Positions 14,937-24,005 of a stretch of 64,000 bases of DNA are shown here, piece by piece. The stretch is taken from assembly GCA_019745975.1 (NCBI GenBank), contig JAIESQ010000073.1:1-64000 (forward strand), in the 5' to 3' direction. How positions within the stretch are numbered: position 1 is the first letter of the stretch; the number at the start of each line of letters is the position of its first letter. The notes beneath the pieces are model-generated. The model saw only the letters and a program-made list of their open reading frames with translations. It searched no databases and was not told where the DNA came from. Both the position numbers and the translations under genes were made by a program. The stretch is from Pirellulales bacterium. GTDB lineage: Bacteria > Planctomycetota > Planctomycetia > Pirellulales > JAEUIK01.

Positions 14937-15915
14937 TTGTCGGGTCGCGTGCGTCGCCACCGGCACGCAAGCGCGCCACCAGTTCGTCGATGGCCGGACC
15001 GAGCGTCGGATAGCGGAACTCGAAGCCGGCATCGACCAATCGTTTAGGTACCACGCGCCGACTCTTGATCACGAGCTCCGTCTCGGTACGCAAGAAAAAC
15101 GAGCCGACTTCGAGCATCCACTGCTCCGCCGGCAGCCCGACGCGGACGCCGCACGCCCGGCGAAATTCGGCCATCATGGCGCGATTCGGGATTGGAGAGG
15201 GGGCGACGACGTTCACAGGGCCGCCGATTTCTTCATGCGCGAGCAGCCATTCGACCGCGCGGCAGAAGTCGACCTCGTGAATCCAGGAGACGTACTGCCG
15301 GCCGCCGGCCATCGCGCCGCCAAGCCGTAAGCGTGTCAGTCGCCACAGCACTTGAAAGACCGTGCCGCGCTCGAGCCCCAGCACCATGCCCAGTCGCAGC
15401 GCAACTTTTCGCGTGCCGGGCGTGGGAGCGGCTGCGAAAGTCTGTTCCCAGGTTTGTGCCACGCGCACGGAGAACTCGTCCTTAGCCGCCGGCGTGCCGC
15501 CGATTTCACCGCGCTCCTCGGTCATCGCCCATTCGAAGGAGTGTTTGTAGATCGTGGCAGTGCTGGAGTTGAGCCAGACGGTAGGCGGCTGCTGGCAGGC
15601 GGCGATCGCTTCGCCGAGCACTTGCGTCGAGCGCACGCGCGAGGCCATGATCTCGCGGCGATTGCGTTCGTGGTAGCGGCAATTGACCGAGCGGCCGGCG
15701 AGATTCACCACGGCCGCGGCACCGTCGAGCTCGCGGTGCCACGCGCCGAGATTCGCGCCATCCCAGAACACGGTGCAGGCAGCGCCGGGCACGGTTTCGT
15801 TGCGGCGCGAGAGGACAACAACTTCCCAGCCGCGCTCGGCCAGCCACGGGGCGAGCAACCGCCCCAAGAAGCCGGCCCCGCCAGGGAGGACGAGTTTGCG
15901 CGTGGATGCAGGCAT
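14896..15915 (-). CDS. TIGR01777 family NAD(P)-dependent epimerase/oxidoreductase
   Basis: The ATG at 15915 (GGGGAG upstream) gives 339 residues that start directly with the Rossmann fold. 'LPGGAGFLGRLLAPWL' is the GxxGxxG nucleotide-binding loop. 'VVNLAGRSVNCRY' and 'VWLNSSTATIYKH' match the catalytic region of the atypical SDR TIGR01777 family, including Tyr in the usual YxxxK area (AIYKHS). 'QYVSWIHEVDFCRAV' and a DUF1731-like C-terminal block ('LPAEQWMLEVGSFFLRTETELVIKS', in part) complete the family pattern. Some relatives, such as SULA/YfcH-type proteins, have unclear roles. The substrate is unknown. It overlaps the WD40-like gene tail to tail. Confidence 0.9.
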   Translation of the reverse strand: MPASTRKLVLPGGAGFLGRLLAPWLAERGWEVVVLSRRNETVPGAACTVFWDGANLGAWHRELDGAAAVVNLAGRSVNCRYHERNRREIMASRVRSTQVLGEAIAACQQPPTVWLNSSTATIYKHSFEWAMTEERGEIGGTPAAKDEFSVRVAQTWEQTFAAAPTPGTRKVALRLGMVLGLERGTVFQVLWRLTRLRLGGAMAGGRQYVSWIHEVDFCRAVEWLLAHEEIGGPVNVVAPSPIPNRAMMAEFRRACGVRVGLPAEQWMLEVGSFFLRTETELVIKSRRVVPKRLVDAGFEFRYPTLGPAIDELVARLRAGGDARDPTITFARQPAVAQAG

Positions 15916-16173
15916 GATCTTCGTCTCCCCGTGCGGAGCCAGTGCTCGACGTGTTGCGATCAGGTCACCGAGAGCAGAACCGCAAGCGCATCGGGACGGA
16001 CAACCGTTTTCATGAATGGGGATTTGCGAATCGTGCCGCGGTGCCAGCAAGGCCTTTATACTGGCCGACTTGGGCAAGCGTTTGTCGGCCGTGTCGATTC
16101 ACGATAAGCTAGATTTACCGAGGTGTCGGCCGGCCGGCGCTCAGTCAAATCGCTTCCTTCGTGGACGGATTCT

Positions 16174-17382
16174 GTGCCCTATTCTCGACAGCCACGAGCG
16201 ACGACTCTGGGGATCGTGATCGCCGTCGTGCTTGCCTGGGGGTGTTCGTACGCACGCGCCGCCGTGGTCGTGCTGGCGAATCGCGCCTCGCAGCCGGTGC
16301 GCTGCGAGATCACCAGCCTGGCGGGCCCCCAGGAGCACACGATTGCCCGCGGCGATCTGATCTGCGTGCCCGTTTCGGCGCGGGATGAGTCGCGAATCGC
16401 GTTTGAGGCGGACGGCAGCGCTGTCGGCTATCACCTCGATCCGAACGCCTGTTACTACTTTTTCGACACTTCGTTGGGCGGGCTCAATCTGCAGAAGATC
16501 GGCTACAGCGAGGAGGCCAGCACGCCCCCGTTGGACGATGCCCCGGCCACGCAATGGGAGAAGGTGGGCAAAAAGCTGCCGCGCGTCTCCAAGATCCCGG
16601 TGAAGCTACTGGCCGACGACGAAGAGCGGATGGTGGCGAAAGCCTGGCAGGATCGGCTGCGGGCGCGGCTCGAAGCAGCATCCGCGATTTTCGAGCGTAC
16701 GTGCCGGATTCGCTTCGAAGTCGTCGCTTTTGACACCTGGGATTCGGACGATCGCATCACCGATTTCAATCGTTCGATGGTCGAGTTCGAGGCCGAGGTG
16801 CCCCCCGCGCCGGCGCGCCTGGTGATCGGGTTTACCAGCCAATACTCACCGATGACCGGCCAGACCAAGGTCGGGGGGACGCGGGCGGCGTTCTATCCGT
16901 ATGTCCTGGTGCGCGAGTGGTCGCAGCATTACACCGAGGCCGAGCGGCTCGAGATGCTGGTGCACGAGCTAGGGCATTATCTGGGTGCGGTCCACAGCCC
17001 CGAGACTACCTCGGTGATGCGGCCGGTGCTGGGCGATCGCCAGGCTCGGCTGCGCAGTTTTCGCATCGGCTTCGATCCGCTCAACGCCCTGGCCATGTAC
17101 CTGGTCGGGGAAGAATACCGGATTCGCGGCAACATCCGGCGGCTGATCGAATTGAGCCCCGCCACGCGGCTGCAGTTGCGCAGCATCTATCAGGAGATCG
17201 GCCGCGCGATCCCGAACGATCCGGCCTCGGCTCAGTACATCTCGCTGCTAGGCAATTTGCCGGCGGCCACGCAGCACACCGGTTTGCGTCCCGTCGTGCC
17301 CGAAGCGGGGGCCGCGGCGAGCGAACCTGTGGACAGCGGCGGGAGCGTGCTGTTGCGACCGTTGCGCGGCGCCAACAAGTAA
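16174..17382 (+). CDS. Exported metzincin-type zinc metalloprotease
   Basis: The GTG at 16174 gives a normal signal peptide (ATTLGIVIAVVLAWGCSYARA); a GTG at 16123 would extend it by 17 residues. In the 402-residue product, 'HELGHYLGAVH' is the full metzincin zinc site HExxHxxGxxH with His264, His268, His274 and catalytic Glu265. 'SVMRP' eight residues later supplies the Met-turn (Met282). The N-terminal 130 residues form a small beta domain (VVVLANRASQPVRCEI) that could be a prodomain or binding module. It probably cleaves proteins outside the cytoplasm. No subfamily (astacin, ADAM, MMP) was recognised. Confidence 0.82.
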   Translation: MPYSRQPRATTLGIVIAVVLAWGCSYARAAVVVLANRASQPVRCEITSLAGPQEHTIARGDLICVPVSARDESRIAFEADGSAVGYHLDPNACYYFFDTSLGGLNLQKIGYSEEASTPPLDDAPATQWEKVGKKLPRVSKIPVKLLADDEERMVAKAWQDRLRARLEAASAIFERTCRIRFEVVAFDTWDSDDRITDFNRSMVEFEAEVPPAPARLVIGFTSQYSPMTGQTKVGGTRAAFYPYVLVREWSQHYTEAERLEMLVHELGHYLGAVHSPETTSVMRPVLGDRQARLRSFRIGFDPLNALAMYLVGEEYRIRGNIRRLIELSPATRLQLRSIYQEIGRAIPNDPASAQYISLLGNLPAATQHTGLRPVVPEAGAAASEPVDSGGSVLLRPLRGANK

Positions 17383-17422
17383 ACGGGCTCGGGCTACGCA
17401 CGACCCGCGCGCGCGGGCTTGG

Positions 17423-18841
17423 CTAGCGGTTGAACGTGAAGCCCAGGTTGACGCCCTGCACCCACACGTCTTGGTCGTTGTACTTGCGGACCCCCAAGTG
17501 CGGCAGCGTGTAGTCGATCATGCTGCTGGGTCGCGCCAGGTAGTTGACGTAGGTGCCGGTCCAGCCGAGCGTCACGTAGAACGTGCTCGTGACCTGGTAG
17601 TTGAAGTTCACACGCGCTTCGACCAGCGGACTGAACTCCGTGCGGTGGAGAATGTTGTTGAAGCGCATCGGGGTGCGAATCAATGGTGTGTTCGTCGCCT
17701 GACCTTGCAACGTATCTAGCGGCAACAACGACAAGCCGGTACCGACGATGCCCGTCTGGTTGACCGTCTGCATGTTGATGCCAGGCATGAAGCGCCATTC
17801 GGTCGAGGCGATCAGCCGTTCCATTTGTCGAAAGTAACGGAAGCCGATCTGCGGCCCCAGGATGTTGTTGCGGGCCAGGTTCAGCAGTTCGGTGCGATTG
17901 AAGATGCCGCCGCTGCCTGAGAAGCTGAATGCCTCGGTGAACTTGAAGAAGCGGATACCGAACAACACGTCGAGGTTCCCCCCGAAGTGGAACTGATCGA
18001 AGCGGTAGAACGGGCTCAGTTCATAGCTCTTGATGAACGAACGATTCTGATACTGAAAGCTGGTGTAGACATTGGCTAGCCGGAAGGTGTCGTTCCAGTC
18101 GATGAAGCTGCTGACCGAGATTTTGTCTTGCGGGCGATCGTAGATCACGCCGTTGCCGTTCAGATCGGCCCAGCGACCGAAAATGAAGTTCGAATTAAGG
18201 TCGTTGTCACCGGCCAGCGTGTCATTGCTGAACTGGTTGATGAAGCCATCAAGCCGGCCGATCGGCACGCCGAACGGGGCGACGAGAATGAACTGTCCGT
18301 TCTGAAAGCCCGCCACCTGCTGCGGCTCGAACGTTTGCACCGTGTCGCGAAACAGCACTTCGACGTGGTCGGCGCGCACCGTTTGCGAGGCCGAGCGCAT
18401 GTCGGTGATGCTTCCCAACCAGCCCCAGTTCTTGCCGACGTAGCCGAATTCGTAGCGCTGGCCCGGCGCGCCGCGCGAGCGGAGCTGACTGGTGTCGAGC
18501 GAGTTAATGCCGGTCTTGAATTCGCCAAACTGGTTCGGAACGCCGGCGGTCTGGTTGGGCTCGAATTCTTGCGGCGCGAAGTCAGGGGCACCGATCGGCA
18601 CCGTGTCGGGGGCGCTGGTCCACCAGAACAACTGATCGAACTGAAAGAACAAGCCACGATTGGGCCTGGGGTAGCCGCTGAGCGGCGACTCGACCGGCGA
18701 CCACGGCCGGAACTTCCGCGGGAACTCGTCGTACATCAGCGGGTTGATGGGGACGGGGTCCTCGGCGGCGCGGCCCGGGACGGCCAGTCCCAGGGCCAGC
18801 AGCGCCGATAGCAGCCACCGTTTGCTCCAGTCACGCAACAT
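17423..18841 (-). CDS. BBP7-family outer-membrane beta-barrel protein
   Basis: The ATG at 18841 gives 472 residues with a signal peptide (WLLSALLALGLAVPGRAA). The mature protein alternates aromatic and polar strands: 'RGLFFQFDQLFWWTSAP', 'FDQFHFGGNLDVLFGIRFF', 'TSTFYVTLGWTGTYVNYLA', ending 'WVQGVNLGFTFNR'. The pattern and N-terminal 'FQFDQLFWW' match the BBP7 family of planctomycete outer-membrane barrels. It is expected to sit in the outer membrane, as porin or structural protein; the ligand is unknown. It converges on the metzincin gene with 40 bases between. Confidence 0.85.
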   Translation of the reverse strand: MLRDWSKRWLLSALLALGLAVPGRAAEDPVPINPLMYDEFPRKFRPWSPVESPLSGYPRPNRGLFFQFDQLFWWTSAPDTVPIGAPDFAPQEFEPNQTAGVPNQFGEFKTGINSLDTSQLRSRGAPGQRYEFGYVGKNWGWLGSITDMRSASQTVRADHVEVLFRDTVQTFEPQQVAGFQNGQFILVAPFGVPIGRLDGFINQFSNDTLAGDNDLNSNFIFGRWADLNGNGVIYDRPQDKISVSSFIDWNDTFRLANVYTSFQYQNRSFIKSYELSPFYRFDQFHFGGNLDVLFGIRFFKFTEAFSFSGSGGIFNRTELLNLARNNILGPQIGFRYFRQMERLIASTEWRFMPGINMQTVNQTGIVGTGLSLLPLDTLQGQATNTPLIRTPMRFNNILHRTEFSPLVEARVNFNYQVTSTFYVTLGWTGTYVNYLARPSSMIDYTLPHLGVRKYNDQDVWVQGVNLGFTFNR

Positions 18842-19627
18842 CGTTTTGTTCCCAAGCAGGCTCGGATTCCCCCCGGGACAGCGCGCGTCCGCACAGACTT
18901 GCGCCGCCACGAAGCTACTGCGTGCGGGTAGTATCGGTTCTGCGGAAGATGCTAGTTGAGTAAGAACGGCAAGCCTTGCCGGAAATGCCGCTTATGCCGC
19001 CGTGTTGATAGCAGTCTGGCGTGCATCACTTACTGAGGTGCGAAACGGCGGCAACCCGCGCTGCGAAGGGGCTTTAGAATCTCCCCTGCGCGCCTCCTGG
19101 CGACGAGACGTCCACTGCTATGCCTGCACGCTGGCAGTGCCAGAGCCGTTGCGGTGCCTTGTAACGGGAAGATGGGCGCGCAATTCGGCAAGGGGCTTAG
19201 GGTACCGTGCGCGCAAAAAAACCCCTGCAGGCGGGGCAGGGACCTGCAAGGGCGTGAAAGCGACTTGCGCCGCTTCCACAGGTCTAGTCTAACAGCCGCT
19301 ATCGCTCGGGCAAGACTTCCCCGCTGGTTTTTTGGCAGGCGCAGGTGCTTACCGCCGGCCGTGTTACACGGCACGTCGTTGAGGCGTTTACATCGAGATC
19401 GTGGTCGTCAGCCGGATGAAACAATTTACCGTTAGAACGAACCGCGTAGGACTGATTCTGAAGTGGCAAAGCGGCGTTCGTGGTTAATGGCTGAAAGCTA
19501 GCCACTACCCGTTCGTGCGGCCGTTTGCCGGGCTGCTGGTCGAGGCGTAAGATCGGGGTGCGGTCGCTGGCAGACCTCTTCCCGCATTTTCTCTGGTTGC
19601 GGCAGCACGAACCCGTGGAGCGGCACG
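18842..19627. other. Long intergenic region containing an orphan minus-strand terminator
   Basis: This 786-base gap lies between two divergent genes (BBP7 barrel leftwards, TraB-like rightwards). No open frame looks protein-coding. The only strong signal is an intrinsic terminator on the minus strand at 19215-19252 with no gene upstream of it. A non-coding RNA on the minus strand between about 19250 and 19600 is possible. I tested tmRNA, RNase P RNA and SRP RNA core motifs by eye without a match. Confidence 0.5.
19215..19252 (-). terminator. Strong intrinsic terminator without an assigned gene
   Basis: Read on the minus strand, CCCTTGCAGG and CCTGCAGGGG form a 10-bp stem (one G-U pair) with an 11-base loop, followed directly by seven T's and then GCGC. 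This is a textbook Rho-independent terminator. The nearest minus-strand coding gene upstream is more than 3 kb away past plus-strand genes, so it must end an unannotated transcript or block antisense transcription. Confidence 0.7.
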
Positions 19628-20797
19628 ATGTCGAGTCGCACGTTTCGACCCTGGGCGCTGGCGTTGGGGGTCGTTGTCTATTTGTGGATGCTCGCGGGTG
19701 TAAGTTGGGCCGACGAGCCCGCCACAGCGAGCATGGAGCACCCCGACCATGCGGCGTCTGCTCCCGCACAGCCACGATTCTTGCGTGTCACGCGCGATGA
19801 CGAAGGGGACGCGGTCGCCCTAGAAACGGCGATCGTCCGCTACGTGCCGCGCGGCGCGTCGGACCCCGCGCCGCAGGTTGTCGAGCGACAAACCGAGCGA
19901 TCAGGCGGCGCTGCGCCGGCGGACGCAGACAGTGCCGCCACCAAGCCGGCCGAGGAACTTGAAGCTTTCGCGCCGCCGGCCGACCTCGTCGTCGATTTGA
20001 TCGGCGCGGTACACATTGGCGAGCGCGCCTACTACGAGCAGATCAACCGCGAATTCAAGAACTACGAGGTCGTGCTCTACGAGCTCGTGGCCCCGCCCGG
20101 CACGCGCATTCCCAAAGGGGGGGCCGCCAGCGCGCATCCCGTGGCGATGCTGCAAGGCGGAATGAAGTCGATGCTGGGGCTCGAGTCGCAAACTGAGCTT
20201 GTCGACTATCAGGCCGAGAATCTTGTGCATGCCGATATGTCGCCCGAGGAGCTCAACCGCTCGATGGAAGCCCGCGGCGACGGATTCATGGCCATGTTCT
20301 TTCGCATGTTGGGGCAGAGCATCGCGCAGCAAGCCCGCGATCAGGTGTTGCGGCAAAGCGGCGCGAAGCTGCCGCGTCGGGCGTCGCAGACCGATCTCTT
20401 GGCGGCGCTATTGAACCCCAATCGCGGCGCGGGCGGACTGAAGCAGATGTTGGCCGACCAATTCGAGAACATGGAAGAGACGATGCGCGCGCTCGAAGGC
20501 CCGCAGGGGAGCTCCCTGATCTCCGAGCGCAACAAGGTGGCGCTTGCCGAGCTGCGCAAGCAGGTGCAGGAGGGTAAACGCCGCATCGCCGTTTTCTATG
20601 GAGCGGGCCACTTGCCCGATCTCGAACGGCGGCTGCTCGACGACCACGGTCTGAAGCGATCCGCAGAGCGCTGGCTGCAGGCTTGGGATCTGAAGGCGGC
20701 TTCGCGGCCCGCCGACGACGCCGACAAACAGCCTGCCGACGCGCAAGCGCCAGACGGAGCCGCCGAGGCGGAGTCGACTGCGTCGCCGGGCAGGTAA
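19628..20797 (+). CDS. Exported TraB/GumN-like family protein
   Basis: The 389-residue protein starts with a signal peptide (ALALGVVVYLWMLAGVSWA). After a 90-residue low-complexity linker, the TraB-like fold appears: 'DLIGAVHIGERAYYEQI' is the GxxH-type motif, followed by 'EVVLYELVAP'. Near the C-terminus 'IAVFYGAGHLPDLERRL' is the second conserved GxGH motif. Members of the TraB/PrgY/GumN/Tiki superfamily are putative metalloproteases or peptide-binding proteins. The paired Gly-His motifs are kept here. The region past residue 350 is an Asp/Ala-rich tail. The role in this organism is unknown. Confidence 0.8.
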   Translation: MSSRTFRPWALALGVVVYLWMLAGVSWADEPATASMEHPDHAASAPAQPRFLRVTRDDEGDAVALETAIVRYVPRGASDPAPQVVERQTERSGGAAPADADSAATKPAEELEAFAPPADLVVDLIGAVHIGERAYYEQINREFKNYEVVLYELVAPPGTRIPKGGAASAHPVAMLQGGMKSMLGLESQTELVDYQAENLVHADMSPEELNRSMEARGDGFMAMFFRMLGQSIAQQARDQVLRQSGAKLPRRASQTDLLAALLNPNRGAGGLKQMLADQFENMEETMRALEGPQGSSLISERNKVALAELRKQVQEGKRRIAVFYGAGHLPDLERRLLDDHGLKRSAERWLQAWDLKAASRPADDADKQPADAQAPDGAAEAESTASPGR

Positions 20798-20893
20798 CCG
20801 CGCCCACTGCCAATTTCGCAAGCGCGTCGCTTGGGCGTGGCATCACCCGGCGCGACGACAAGCGATACCACCTTAGCGCGAGGAGAACCGACG

Positions 20894-21982
20894 ATGGTCC
20901 GCGTTCGCGTTTTCGATTCCCGCGGCGAGCTCGTTGGCCCGGTCGAGAGCCCCAAGGTCGAACTAAGCGACGACCAATGGCGGCAGCGGCTCACCCCGCA
21001 GCAATTCGAGGTGCTCCGCAGCAAGGGGACCGAGCGCCCCTTCTGCGGCACGTTGCTCGATAATAAGCAGCAAGGGGTTTACACCTGCGCCGGTTGTGGG
21101 CTGCCGCTGTTCAGCAGTGACGCCAAGTTCAACTCGGGGACTGGCTGGCCGAGCTTCTTTCAGCCCATCGCCAACGAGAACGTTGCCACCGAACATGACG
21201 ACAGCCACGGGATGCGCCGCACCGAGATTCTTTGCGCGCGTTGCGACGGGCATCTCGGGCACGTCTTCGACGACGGGCCGCGCCCGACCGGGCTGCGGTT
21301 CTGCCTCAACTCCGAGTCGCTGAACTTCACGCCGAGCGAACAGCTCGCCTCGCTGGCCGATCCGATTCTGGAAAGCGTCGCGGCCGCGAGACAGCCGGCA
21401 GCCAGCGGCCACAACCCGAAAGCCGGCCCGTCAGCCGCCGAGGAAATAGCTGTCTTCGCCGGGGGCTGCTTCTGGTGTACCGAAGCGGCTTTCGCCCAGC
21501 TCGCTGGCGTGCTCGACGTTGAAAGCGGTTATGCCGGGGGCACGGCCGAAACCGCCAACTACGAGGATGTTTGCACCGGGCAGACGGGGCACGCCGAAGC
21601 GATTCGCATCCGTTACAACCCGGCGACGATCAGCTTCGCGCAGTTGCTCGATGTCTTCTTCGACGCCCACGACCCCACGCAGCTCAATCGCCAGGGAAAC
21701 GACGTCGGCACGCAGTATCGCTCGGCGATTCTCTTTGCCGATGAGCCACAGCGGCGCGCGGCCGAGGCGAAGATCGCCGAGCTCGCCGCGGCCCGCGCGT
21801 TTCCGCGGCCGATCGTCACGACACTTGAACCGCTGGCGGCGTTTTACCCAGCGGAGGAATACCATCAGGATTACGCGGAGAAGAACCCCAATCAGCCGTA
21901 CGTGCGTTACCACTCGTTGCCCAAGGCGTGCGCCGTCCGCGAGAAGCACCCCGAACTGATGCGCGGCGCCGCCAGCCATTGA
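20894..21982 (+). CDS. msrBA: Bifunctional methionine sulfoxide reductase, MsrB-MsrA fusion
   Basis: The ATG at 20894 has AGGAGA eight bases upstream. The 362-residue protein reduces methionine sulfoxide in both stereo forms and repairs oxidised proteins. Residues 10-150 are MsrB: zinc cysteines in 'CAGCGLPLF' and '[10 protein letters not shown]', and catalytic Cys137 in 'RFCLNSESL'. Residues 180-355 are MsrA: catalytic Cys192 in '[12 protein letters not shown]', followed by '[18 protein letters not shown]' and '[10 protein letters not shown]'. No signal peptide is visible, so it is cytoplasmic. The MsrB-first order differs from the MsrA-MsrB order of PilB-type fusions. The DinB-like gene follows after 20 bases, so the two may be co-transcribed. 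Confidence 0.95.
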
Positions 21983-22002
21983 TCAATTCAAAGAGCCCTG
22001 CC

Positions 22003-22524
22003 ATGAGTGTCGTCGCTGCCTGCGGCCATGAATTCGAGCGCCATCGCCGGCTGATCGAACGCGCGGTTACGCCCTTGACCGACGAGGAGCTCTTCCGGCA
22101 CCCAGCACCCTCGGTCAATTCGCTGGCCTTGATCGTCAAGCACCTGGCGGGCAATCTGGCGTCGCGCTGGAGCGACTTCTTGACGAGCGACGGCGACAAG
22201 CCCTCGCGCGACCGCGACAACGAGTTCGTCATTATGGCCGCCGACACCCGCGTTAACCTGATGGCCGGCTGGGATCGCGCGTGGTCGATCGTCGGGCAAA
22301 CACTCGTGAGCCTGAGCGATGCCGATCTCGATCGCGAGATCACGATCCGCGGCGAGCCGCACACCGTACTGCAAGCGCTGTTGCGCGGCGTGTCGCACAC
22401 GGCTTATCACGCCGGGCAGGTGCTCTATGTCACACGGCTGCTGCGACCCGATGCGCCCTGGCTGACGATCGCGCCGGGCCAAAGCCGGCAGCATGGCGCG
22501 GGGCGCTATCTCCAACAAAGCTAA
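22003..22524 (+). CDS. DinB-superfamily (DUF1572-like) protein
   Basis: A 173-residue, mostly helical protein. His in 'HEFERHRRLIERAV', in 'LIVKHLAGNLASRW' and in 'LLRGVSHTAYHAGQVLYV' are spaced like the three metal-binding histidines of the DinB four-helix bundle. The middle block resembles DUF1572. These proteins are putative metal-dependent transferases, some using bacillithiol, with unknown substrates in most cases. The ATG lies 20 bases after the Msr stop. The final codons overlap the convergent PEP-CTERM gene by four bases. Confidence 0.8.
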   Translation: MSVVAACGHEFERHRRLIERAVTPLTDEELFRHPAPSVNSLALIVKHLAGNLASRWSDFLTSDGDKPSRDRDNEFVIMAADTRVNLMAGWDRAWSIVGQTLVSLSDADLDREITIRGEPHTVLQALLRGVSHTAYHAGQVLYVTRLLRPDAPWLTIAPGQSRQHGAGRYLQQS

Positions 22525-23495
22525 GGTGCCCGCGCCGTCGGTGATCGAGCCCGGCGGCCACCTGCCACGAGCACGCACAGTCCCAGTCCACCGGAAAGCA
22601 GAAGGCGGAGCGATCGTGGTTCGGGAACGGACGCCGTGGCAACGGTAAGGTTGTCGGAGTAAATCGTCGGCGAAAGCGTGTAATACGTCGTGTAGAACAG
22701 CGGATAGTCGGTCAAGCTGGCAACGCCGCCCGTGACGCCGATGGCAGTCCTCAGATCGTTGGCGACGGTCGTATCGTTGAGCCCGAGCGACGGATCGCTG
22801 GTGAACTCGATCTGCAGTTCCGACTTCGAGCCGATTGGCGCCGTGGCGACGATCGACAGGTTCCATAAGTTGGCATGCTGTAGATCTCCGGCTCCTGCTG
22901 ACAGCGATGTGAAAGGATCGGTCGGATAGACTTCCATCGAGAACGAGAGCCCGTAGGAGTACTGATACGTGCCTGGGTCGACTGCAAAAGGGTCGATGGC
23001 GGTGCCGGCTCCGATTGAGGGGTCGCCGGCTTTGGTATTGCCCTCAGCAAGCAGCGTGAACACGCCTTTGCTATTGAGAACGCCGCCGTAGCCTTTGGCG
23101 GCATCGGTGACAGACTCGGTGTAAATTCCGGTAGGGTATTTGTTGTCGGGGTTAACCAAGGGCTTCTCCAGATCGCGGAAGCCAACCACTGGGGCAACCT
23201 TTTGATTTTTTCCGCCGGGGAGCGGGACCGTGATGAACTCGCTCTTGTAGACGTTGGGAGCCTTAGTCGGGTCGGGATAGTTCGTCGAGGTTGTCGCGTT
23301 CACCTGCCCTTTCGACGCGCTGTAGGCGTAGACCGAAAAGGTGCTGGCGGCTGGATCGGCGTTACTGGGGCCAATCAAAAACTTCGTACTGGCCGTGATG
23401 CTCCCGGCCCGGGCGGCAGAGCCCACCAAACAAACGACGGCGACGAGAGCAAGAGCTCGCCAGATGCGAGCGCGATAGAGACATTGGACACGCAT
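22521..23495 (-). CDS. PEP-CTERM sorting-domain exported protein
   Basis: The 324-residue protein has an N-terminal signal peptide (IWRALALVAVVCLVGSAARA) and a C-terminal 'VPEPRSLRLLLSGGLGL' hydrophobic stretch with a basic end (GGRRAR), the layout of PEP-CTERM proteins cleaved by an exosortase. The region between is beta-rich, Ser/Thr/Gly-rich and unassigned. It is expected to be exported and possibly processed and glycosylated. No enzymatic motif is visible, and no exosortase gene is in the window. Confidence 0.75.
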   Translation of the reverse strand: MRVQCLYRARIWRALALVAVVCLVGSAARAGSITASTKFLIGPSNADPAASTFSVYAYSASKGQVNATTSTNYPDPTKAPNVYKSEFITVPLPGGKNQKVAPVVGFRDLEKPLVNPDNKYPTGIYTESVTDAAKGYGGVLNSKGVFTLLAEGNTKAGDPSIGAGTAIDPFAVDPGTYQYSYGLSFSMEVYPTDPFTSLSAGAGDLQHANLWNLSIVATAPIGSKSELQIEFTSDPSLGLNDTTVANDLRTAIGVTGGVASLTDYPLFYTTYYTLSPTIYSDNLTVATASVPEPRSLRLLLSGGLGLCVLVAGGRRARSPTARAP

Positions 23496-23714
23496 GACGC
23501 CAGCCTCCTAGCAGTTATTGCAACTCGTTAGCACACCTCCCAGCAACGCGTCTGCACAATGCCTATCCTATGTTCCCCAGGCGACATCAAGAGAATAGCG
23601 CTGGGCAGACGCACGGGTCAAGAATTATTTCACGCCCGCCGTCCGTGGGATTACTTACGGCGGTGACTCTCTAAAGTCGCCTTCATGCGACAGACGGCTT
23701 CGCGCCGCGGATGG

Positions 23715-24005
23715 CTACTTCTTCTTCACTCCTGGAAACGCGTATCCGCAATCGCAGACCGCGCGTCGGGCGGCCACCTCGCGGCGGCACTTGGGGCATT
23801 TTTTCTGCCACATGTTTCGCGGCGCTGCGGCTTTGGCCTCGGCCTCGCGGCGCGCCTTGGCACGCTCGTCGATCACCACCGCCGCGCGCGAAGCCGCGCA
23901 CTGTGGGTGGATCCCCGTACTCGAATACGTCGCCTTGCCGCACACCGGGCAGCACGGGCGGGGTGGAGTCGGCGCGATCAACGCCTCGGGCTTGCTGTTG
24001 CTCAT
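23715..24005 (-). CDS. Small double zinc-ribbon protein
   Basis: A 96-residue protein with CPVCG near the N-terminus plus a later 'HPQC', and a C-terminal ribbon 'CPKCRREVAARRAVCDCGY', giving two potential zinc sites. A Lys/Ala/Glu-rich helix separates them. The final GVKKK is basic, which would suit nucleic-acid or ribosome contact. No named family was recognised. It lies downstream of the RRM gene on the same strand, separated by a terminator-like hairpin. Confidence 0.75.
   Translation of the reverse strand: MSNSKPEALIAPTPPRPCCPVCGKATYSSTGIHPQCAASRAAVVIDERAKARREAEAKAAAPRNMWQKKCPKCRREVAARRAVCDCGYAFPGVKKK

Follow-up and report, generated by a model that had tools for sequence, protein, structure and literature searches.

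The window, a stretch of 64,000 nucleotides from the 6.98-Mb genome of a Pirellulales bacterium, contains an intergenic region bordered by a BBP7 gene and a TraB/PrgY/gumN-like gene. On the minus strand of this region, positions 19252-19215 read as a 10-bp stem followed by T7. As the first-pass annotation had stated, this terminator has no coding gene upstream on its strand for more than 3 kb: the nearest minus-strand gene called by our own gene-calling script ends at 22521, 3.27 kb away, and none of the minus-strand open reading frames listed in the gap was picked as a gene. The hairpin alone is not evidence of an RNA gene, since a generic terminator scan of positions 15000-24000 gave 8 sites against 8.5 expected from shuffles; its significance rests on conservation in relatives. 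Searches of the window with Rfam 15 and for tRNAs returned no family at threshold and no tRNA, respectively.

The minus-strand segment 19300-19213 is predicted to fold into two adjoining strong hairpins (-41.5 kcal/mol, z -3.75), and none of 200 shuffles was equally stable. A sigma70-type promoter search placed a -35 and a -10 box ahead of the first hairpin (Table 1), so positioned that the 5' end of the RNA is estimated at 7 nt past the -10 box. The promoter of the window copy is ordinary, with a score of 8 of 12. The -10 box, the hairpin and the loop are kept among the window copy and two relatives (L003 and L005), which together represent three genera, while the flanks have diverged.

Table 1. 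Features of the predicted small RNA locus and its neighbours (positions in the window)
Feature	Position	Strand	Basis
Predicted small RNA, ~65 nt	19215..19279	-	promoter position, fold, family conservation
-35 box TTGCCC, spacer 16	19308..19313	-	sigma70-type promoter search
-10 box TAGACT	19286..19291	-	identical in L003 and L005, relatives from two other genera
5' hairpin GTGGAAGCG..CGCTTTCAC	19254..19279	-	fold
Terminator hairpin, 10 pairs including one G-T	19222..19252	-	sequence, fold; family covariation
Terminator 5' arm CCCTTGCAGG	19252-19243	-	window sequence
Conserved C-rich terminator loop TCCCTGCCCCG	19232..19242	-	invariant core in 16-sequence seed alignment
Terminator 3' arm CCTGCAGGGG	19231-19222	-	window sequence
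T7 run	19215..19221	-	window sequence
GCGC immediately 3' of T-run, family feature	19211..19214	-	comparison of terminators
TraB/PrgY/gumN-like gene, divergent neighbour	19628..20797	+	Pfam E 9e-5, 22.9 bits, below cut-off 26.8
BBP7 gene, downstream neighbour	17423..18841	-	Pfam PF07585, E 1.1e-8
Conserved promoter-like element, between RNA and BBP7 gene	18921..18991	-	12 occurrences

A BLAST search of 57 relatives with the DNA of the intergenic region gave repeated matches to the terminator, more than one in some genomes, and 16 sequences found with the window in this way formed a seed alignment. All 16 have GGTNCCTGCCCCGCCT in common, enclosed by a stem with covarying outer pairs; 91.3% of the stem cells are paired, and five of the ten pairs are changed on both sides. 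A covariance model of the terminator hairpin, built on loop-bearing sequences and referred to here as R1, matched all seven genomes of the window's family. Across the order, 104 of 296 genomes had matches, and these represent 68 of 121 genera; 82 of the 104 reach E <= 1e-5, and the remaining 22, whose best E lies above this value, may include false matches. In a phylum-wide sample, R1 matched nine of 292 genomes, five within the order and four outside it, and the latter (L060, L062, L063 and L064) were rejected as plain terminators without the loop. The exact family pattern occurs in 49 stretches among 84,980 named genomes, of which 48 are titled planctomycete and one (L067, JABMRB010000267.1) is filed under a Nealsonbacteria metagenome-assembled genome. 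The genes around the RNA in L067 are planctomycete-like and cluster with planctomycete loci, so the contig is probably misbinned. Metagenome-assembled genomes of Thermogutta are among those that carry the exact pattern, whereas viral contigs gave no match to it.

Within the window's own genome, R1 marked five places: the window copy, a tandem triple on one contig (C188) and a weaker copy on another (C55, 37 bits). The window RNA is thus one of four family genes, plus a weaker fifth. The triple (L131, 3780-4223) lies ahead of nuoA, and its copies have their own promoters, clear in two of the three. A longer tandem array was observed in another genome (L128, 2778-3957, on contig C364 of G015), with five copies that likewise have promoters of their own, one of them carrying a degenerate loop.

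For further comparison, 77 sites were collected with a picking script that requires CTGCCCC, the stem and the T-run, so the constancy of the loop across these sites reflects their selection, and the model hits provide a less biased view. Among the model hits printed for the order, CTGCCCC is kept in 23 of 24, the exception being the degenerate copy of the G015 array. What remains of the loop in divergent members of the order is (N)NCUGCCCC, and the changes in its closing pairs are compensated. An alignment of 28 members has 97.8% of its terminator stem cells paired and both sides changed in seven of 13 pairs, and its covariation score was reached by none of 500 shuffles. The T-run is followed by GCGC in 46 of 70 family terminators, compared to four of 36 other strong terminators. 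Copies of the loop or its core also occur in the 5' hairpin of several members (L071, L125/L126, L129 and L130), which suggests that the loop serves more than termination.

The promoter is also a recurrent property of the family. A sigma70-like promoter scoring at least 9 of 12 was found at the expected distance in 38 of 63 occurrences, compared to 3.4% of shuffles; one further occurrence, the 64th, lies too close to a contig end to be included. The spacer measures 16-17 nt in 47 of the 55 occurrences whose promoter scores at least 8, and in a second count 73 of the 77 sites have a score of at least 7. A CCC..GGG dyad abuts the -35 box in 22 of these 73 promoters (for instance in L096, L079, L044 and L128), against 0.45 expected from letter shuffles; the window copy lacks the strict dyad. 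Lying next to the -35 box in some members, the dyad is a possible operator and suggests that expression is regulated. Predicted RNAs were folded for the 57 of the 77 sites that have a promoter score of at least 8 within 60 nt, a set that includes the 28 aligned members. These RNAs measure 59-83 nt with a median of 70, and all 57 fold into at least two hairpins. Their 5' segments (54 distinct) are more stable than shuffles, with a mean z of -3.2, while the stem pairs and loops of the 5' hairpin vary between members, as tabulated by pair type without alignment.

With its predicted promoter, two hairpins, terminator, covariation, tandem paralogs and recurrence across Pirellulales, the locus very probably represents a stand-alone intergenic small RNA gene and a member of an order-wide family. 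The small RNA proposed in the first-pass annotation is well supported as a predicted gene. The other proposal of that annotation, an antisense leader originating in the TraB-like region, does not agree with the predicted promoter at 19313-19286. This promoter sets the RNA start outside the TraB-like gene, ~350 nt from its start codon (19628), and the RNA then extends away from the gene, with no called gene in its path. An antisense RNA or leader of the TraB-like gene would fit with the presence of such a gene as divergent neighbour at seven of the 77 sites, yet most members have other neighbours, and we consider this origin extremely improbable. Hardly more credible is a mere strong terminator, kept as DNA or present by chance, that lacks an RNA gene of its own. 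The chance-level result of the generic scan is in line with such a terminator, but the promoter, the 5' hairpin and the loop are all conserved, the element occurs in arrays, and copies of the loop are found beyond the terminator.

A cis-acting leader or attenuator, in which the terminator would set read-through into the nuo operon, BBP7 or mrp, is improbable to a lesser degree. The downstream gene lies on the same strand at 49 of the 72 sites with a gene call, and several neighbours recur: counted as lower bounds, because the gene-calling script is crude and the loci often span only 1.5 kb, and with the three C188 copies entering as three sites, nuoA lies downstream on the same strand at 20 of the 77 sites, BBP7 at eight and an Mrp/NUBPL ATPase gene at five, while a divergent M20 peptidase gene occurs at 24. 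Representatives of these neighbours were checked by Pfam. Against a leader, the other 23 of the 72 sites have a downstream gene oriented oppositely to the RNA, the arrays are made of complete units, and an unsystematic look noticed no conserved alternative pairing. In addition, a conserved promoter-like element belonging to the BBP7 gene lies in the interval that separates this gene from the RNA. Read in the direction of BBP7, the element is TTCTTACTCAACT-N-ACCGATACTACC, and nine of its 12 occurrences have a same-sense gene with a signal-peptide-like start 16-82 nt downstream, the window's gene being the one that was checked as BBP7 by Pfam; the element probably represents a promoter common to BBP7-type genes. 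The strands of the neighbours and this element favour a stand-alone RNA over a leader, although the RNA may act as a leader at some loci. The most serious alternative, which we still hold to be unlikely, accepts the same small RNA but treats its loop as a protein-binding site, through which the RNA would titrate or guide an RNA-binding protein. Such a role would agree with an invariance that extends into the closing pairs, with the lack of enrichment of the loop complement at gene starts, with tandem copies that suit titration and with the seven CsrA-family genes of the window's genome. However, divergent members change the closing pairs with compensation while CUGCCCC stays constant, and no partner protein is known. 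CsrA itself was set aside as a partner, since its usual recognition motif, GGA, is absent from the conserved loop.

Our preferred reading, to which we assign a probability of roughly 0.8, is a stand-alone, Hfq-independent small RNA predicted to use its C-rich terminator loop for action in trans. A sigma70-type promoter would start an RNA of ~65 nt, which would consist of a sequence-variable 5' hairpin and a terminator hairpin with the fixed C-rich loop (N)NCUGCCCC. The action in trans, without Hfq and through the loop, is itself likely for the RNAs of the family. An Hfq search (PF17209) gave no match in the window's genome, whereas the control detected Hfq in five of 14 named genomes. With about even odds, the loop may pair with GGGGCAG-like G-rich sites in a restricted number of mRNAs, in analogy to RepG of Helicobacter pylori.

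Target searches were directed at the loop complement. Near 840 gene starts in 1.2 Mb of one genome (G022), GGGGCAG had two hits and ranked 30th of 42 letter permutations. As it is not enriched near starts, a genome-wide anti-Shine-Dalgarno action was rejected and is not claimed as the general mode. Up to 800 nt downstream of the RNAs there were again two hits (rank 35 of 42), below the median of the permutations, and pairing with neighbouring genes was discarded on this basis. In 16 Thermoguttaceae-like genomes (an inferred name for one family of the order, f17), the pattern CGGGGCAGG-N2-10-ATG was matched 204 times and its reversed control 75 times; this excess was not counted as evidence, since 15 of the 30 matches inspected have frames of fewer than 40 codons. 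No recurring target was seen among these 30 of the 204 matches. They include a single recognised regulator, a Fur-family gene of G022, but in the orthologs of this gene the site forms part of the coding sequence, and the candidate was therefore discarded.

Tandem, multi-copy RNAs with C-rich loops are also represented by the LhrC sRNAs of Listeria, which belong to another phylum than the Pirellulales family. The C/U-rich terminator loop of RepG (HPnc5490) is described as the active part of that RNA, enough by itself to repress a target, and as pairing with a G-repeat in the mRNA leader (PMC8295292, in the part consulted). The Pirellulales family resembles it in having two hairpins, of which the terminator bears a C-rich loop; it differs in its CUGCCCC loop, its multiple copies and its phylum, and no G-repeat target was found for it. 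The best sub-threshold Rfam match of the window is sX13 (RF02232; full-length, E 0.076, 22.3 bits where the gathering score is 50), known from Xanthomonas as a structured, Hfq-independent sRNA with C-rich loops according to the consulted section of its report (PMC3771888). When 12 loci from other family members were searched up to E 1, the sX13 model did not match again. Moreover, sX13 has three C-rich loops whereas most family members have one, and its targets carry G-rich sites near starts, where no enrichment of the loop complement was seen in G022.

The CcsR or 'cuckoo' RNAs of Alphaproteobacteria (RF02791) are likewise multi-copy and tandem, with a conserved C-rich motif. Their motif is CCUCCUCCC, as given in the Rfam name, in contrast to the CUGCCCC of the Pirellulales family, and four of them arise by processing of a single operon that also holds a DUF1127 gene (PMC10253847, as far as the excerpt used describes them), whereas most of the Pirellulales copies have their own promoters. 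The RF02791 model did not match the window; among the 12 member loci it gave one CcsR1 match (22.6 bits against 65.3, E 0.22), which lies off the RNA. The Rhodopirellula-1 motif has been reported as a candidate structured RNA of Planctomycetes and is also listed for Proteobacteria (PMC2864571, from the portion consulted), a group in which the exact family pattern was not found among the named genomes searched; the motif and the family may be identical.

No report of this RNA was found in the open-licence literature, a scope that excludes subscription papers and supplements. Based on this result and on the lack of an Rfam match at threshold, we propose a new family of C-rich-loop sRNAs, with the reservation that it may be identical to the Rhodopirellula-1 motif. 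A far-reaching and rather doubtful extension would make the family a core post-transcriptional regulator of an Hfq-less order, with loop-only sRNAs, a CCC..GGG operator shared by many members beside the promoter and a CUGCCCC regulon for respiration and Fe-S supply; copies are located at the complex I operon or the Mrp/NUBPL gene in several families. Annotation of sRNAs is sparse in this part of the tree, and one review, in the part consulted, counts eight distinct sRNAs for the PVC group as a whole (PMC9029176). A family with a near-invariant loop, matched in 68 of 121 sampled genera of the order and present in a genome with no detectable Hfq, offers an entry into planctomycete post-transcriptional control, and the loop of the family provides a defined motif for tests in cultured relatives.
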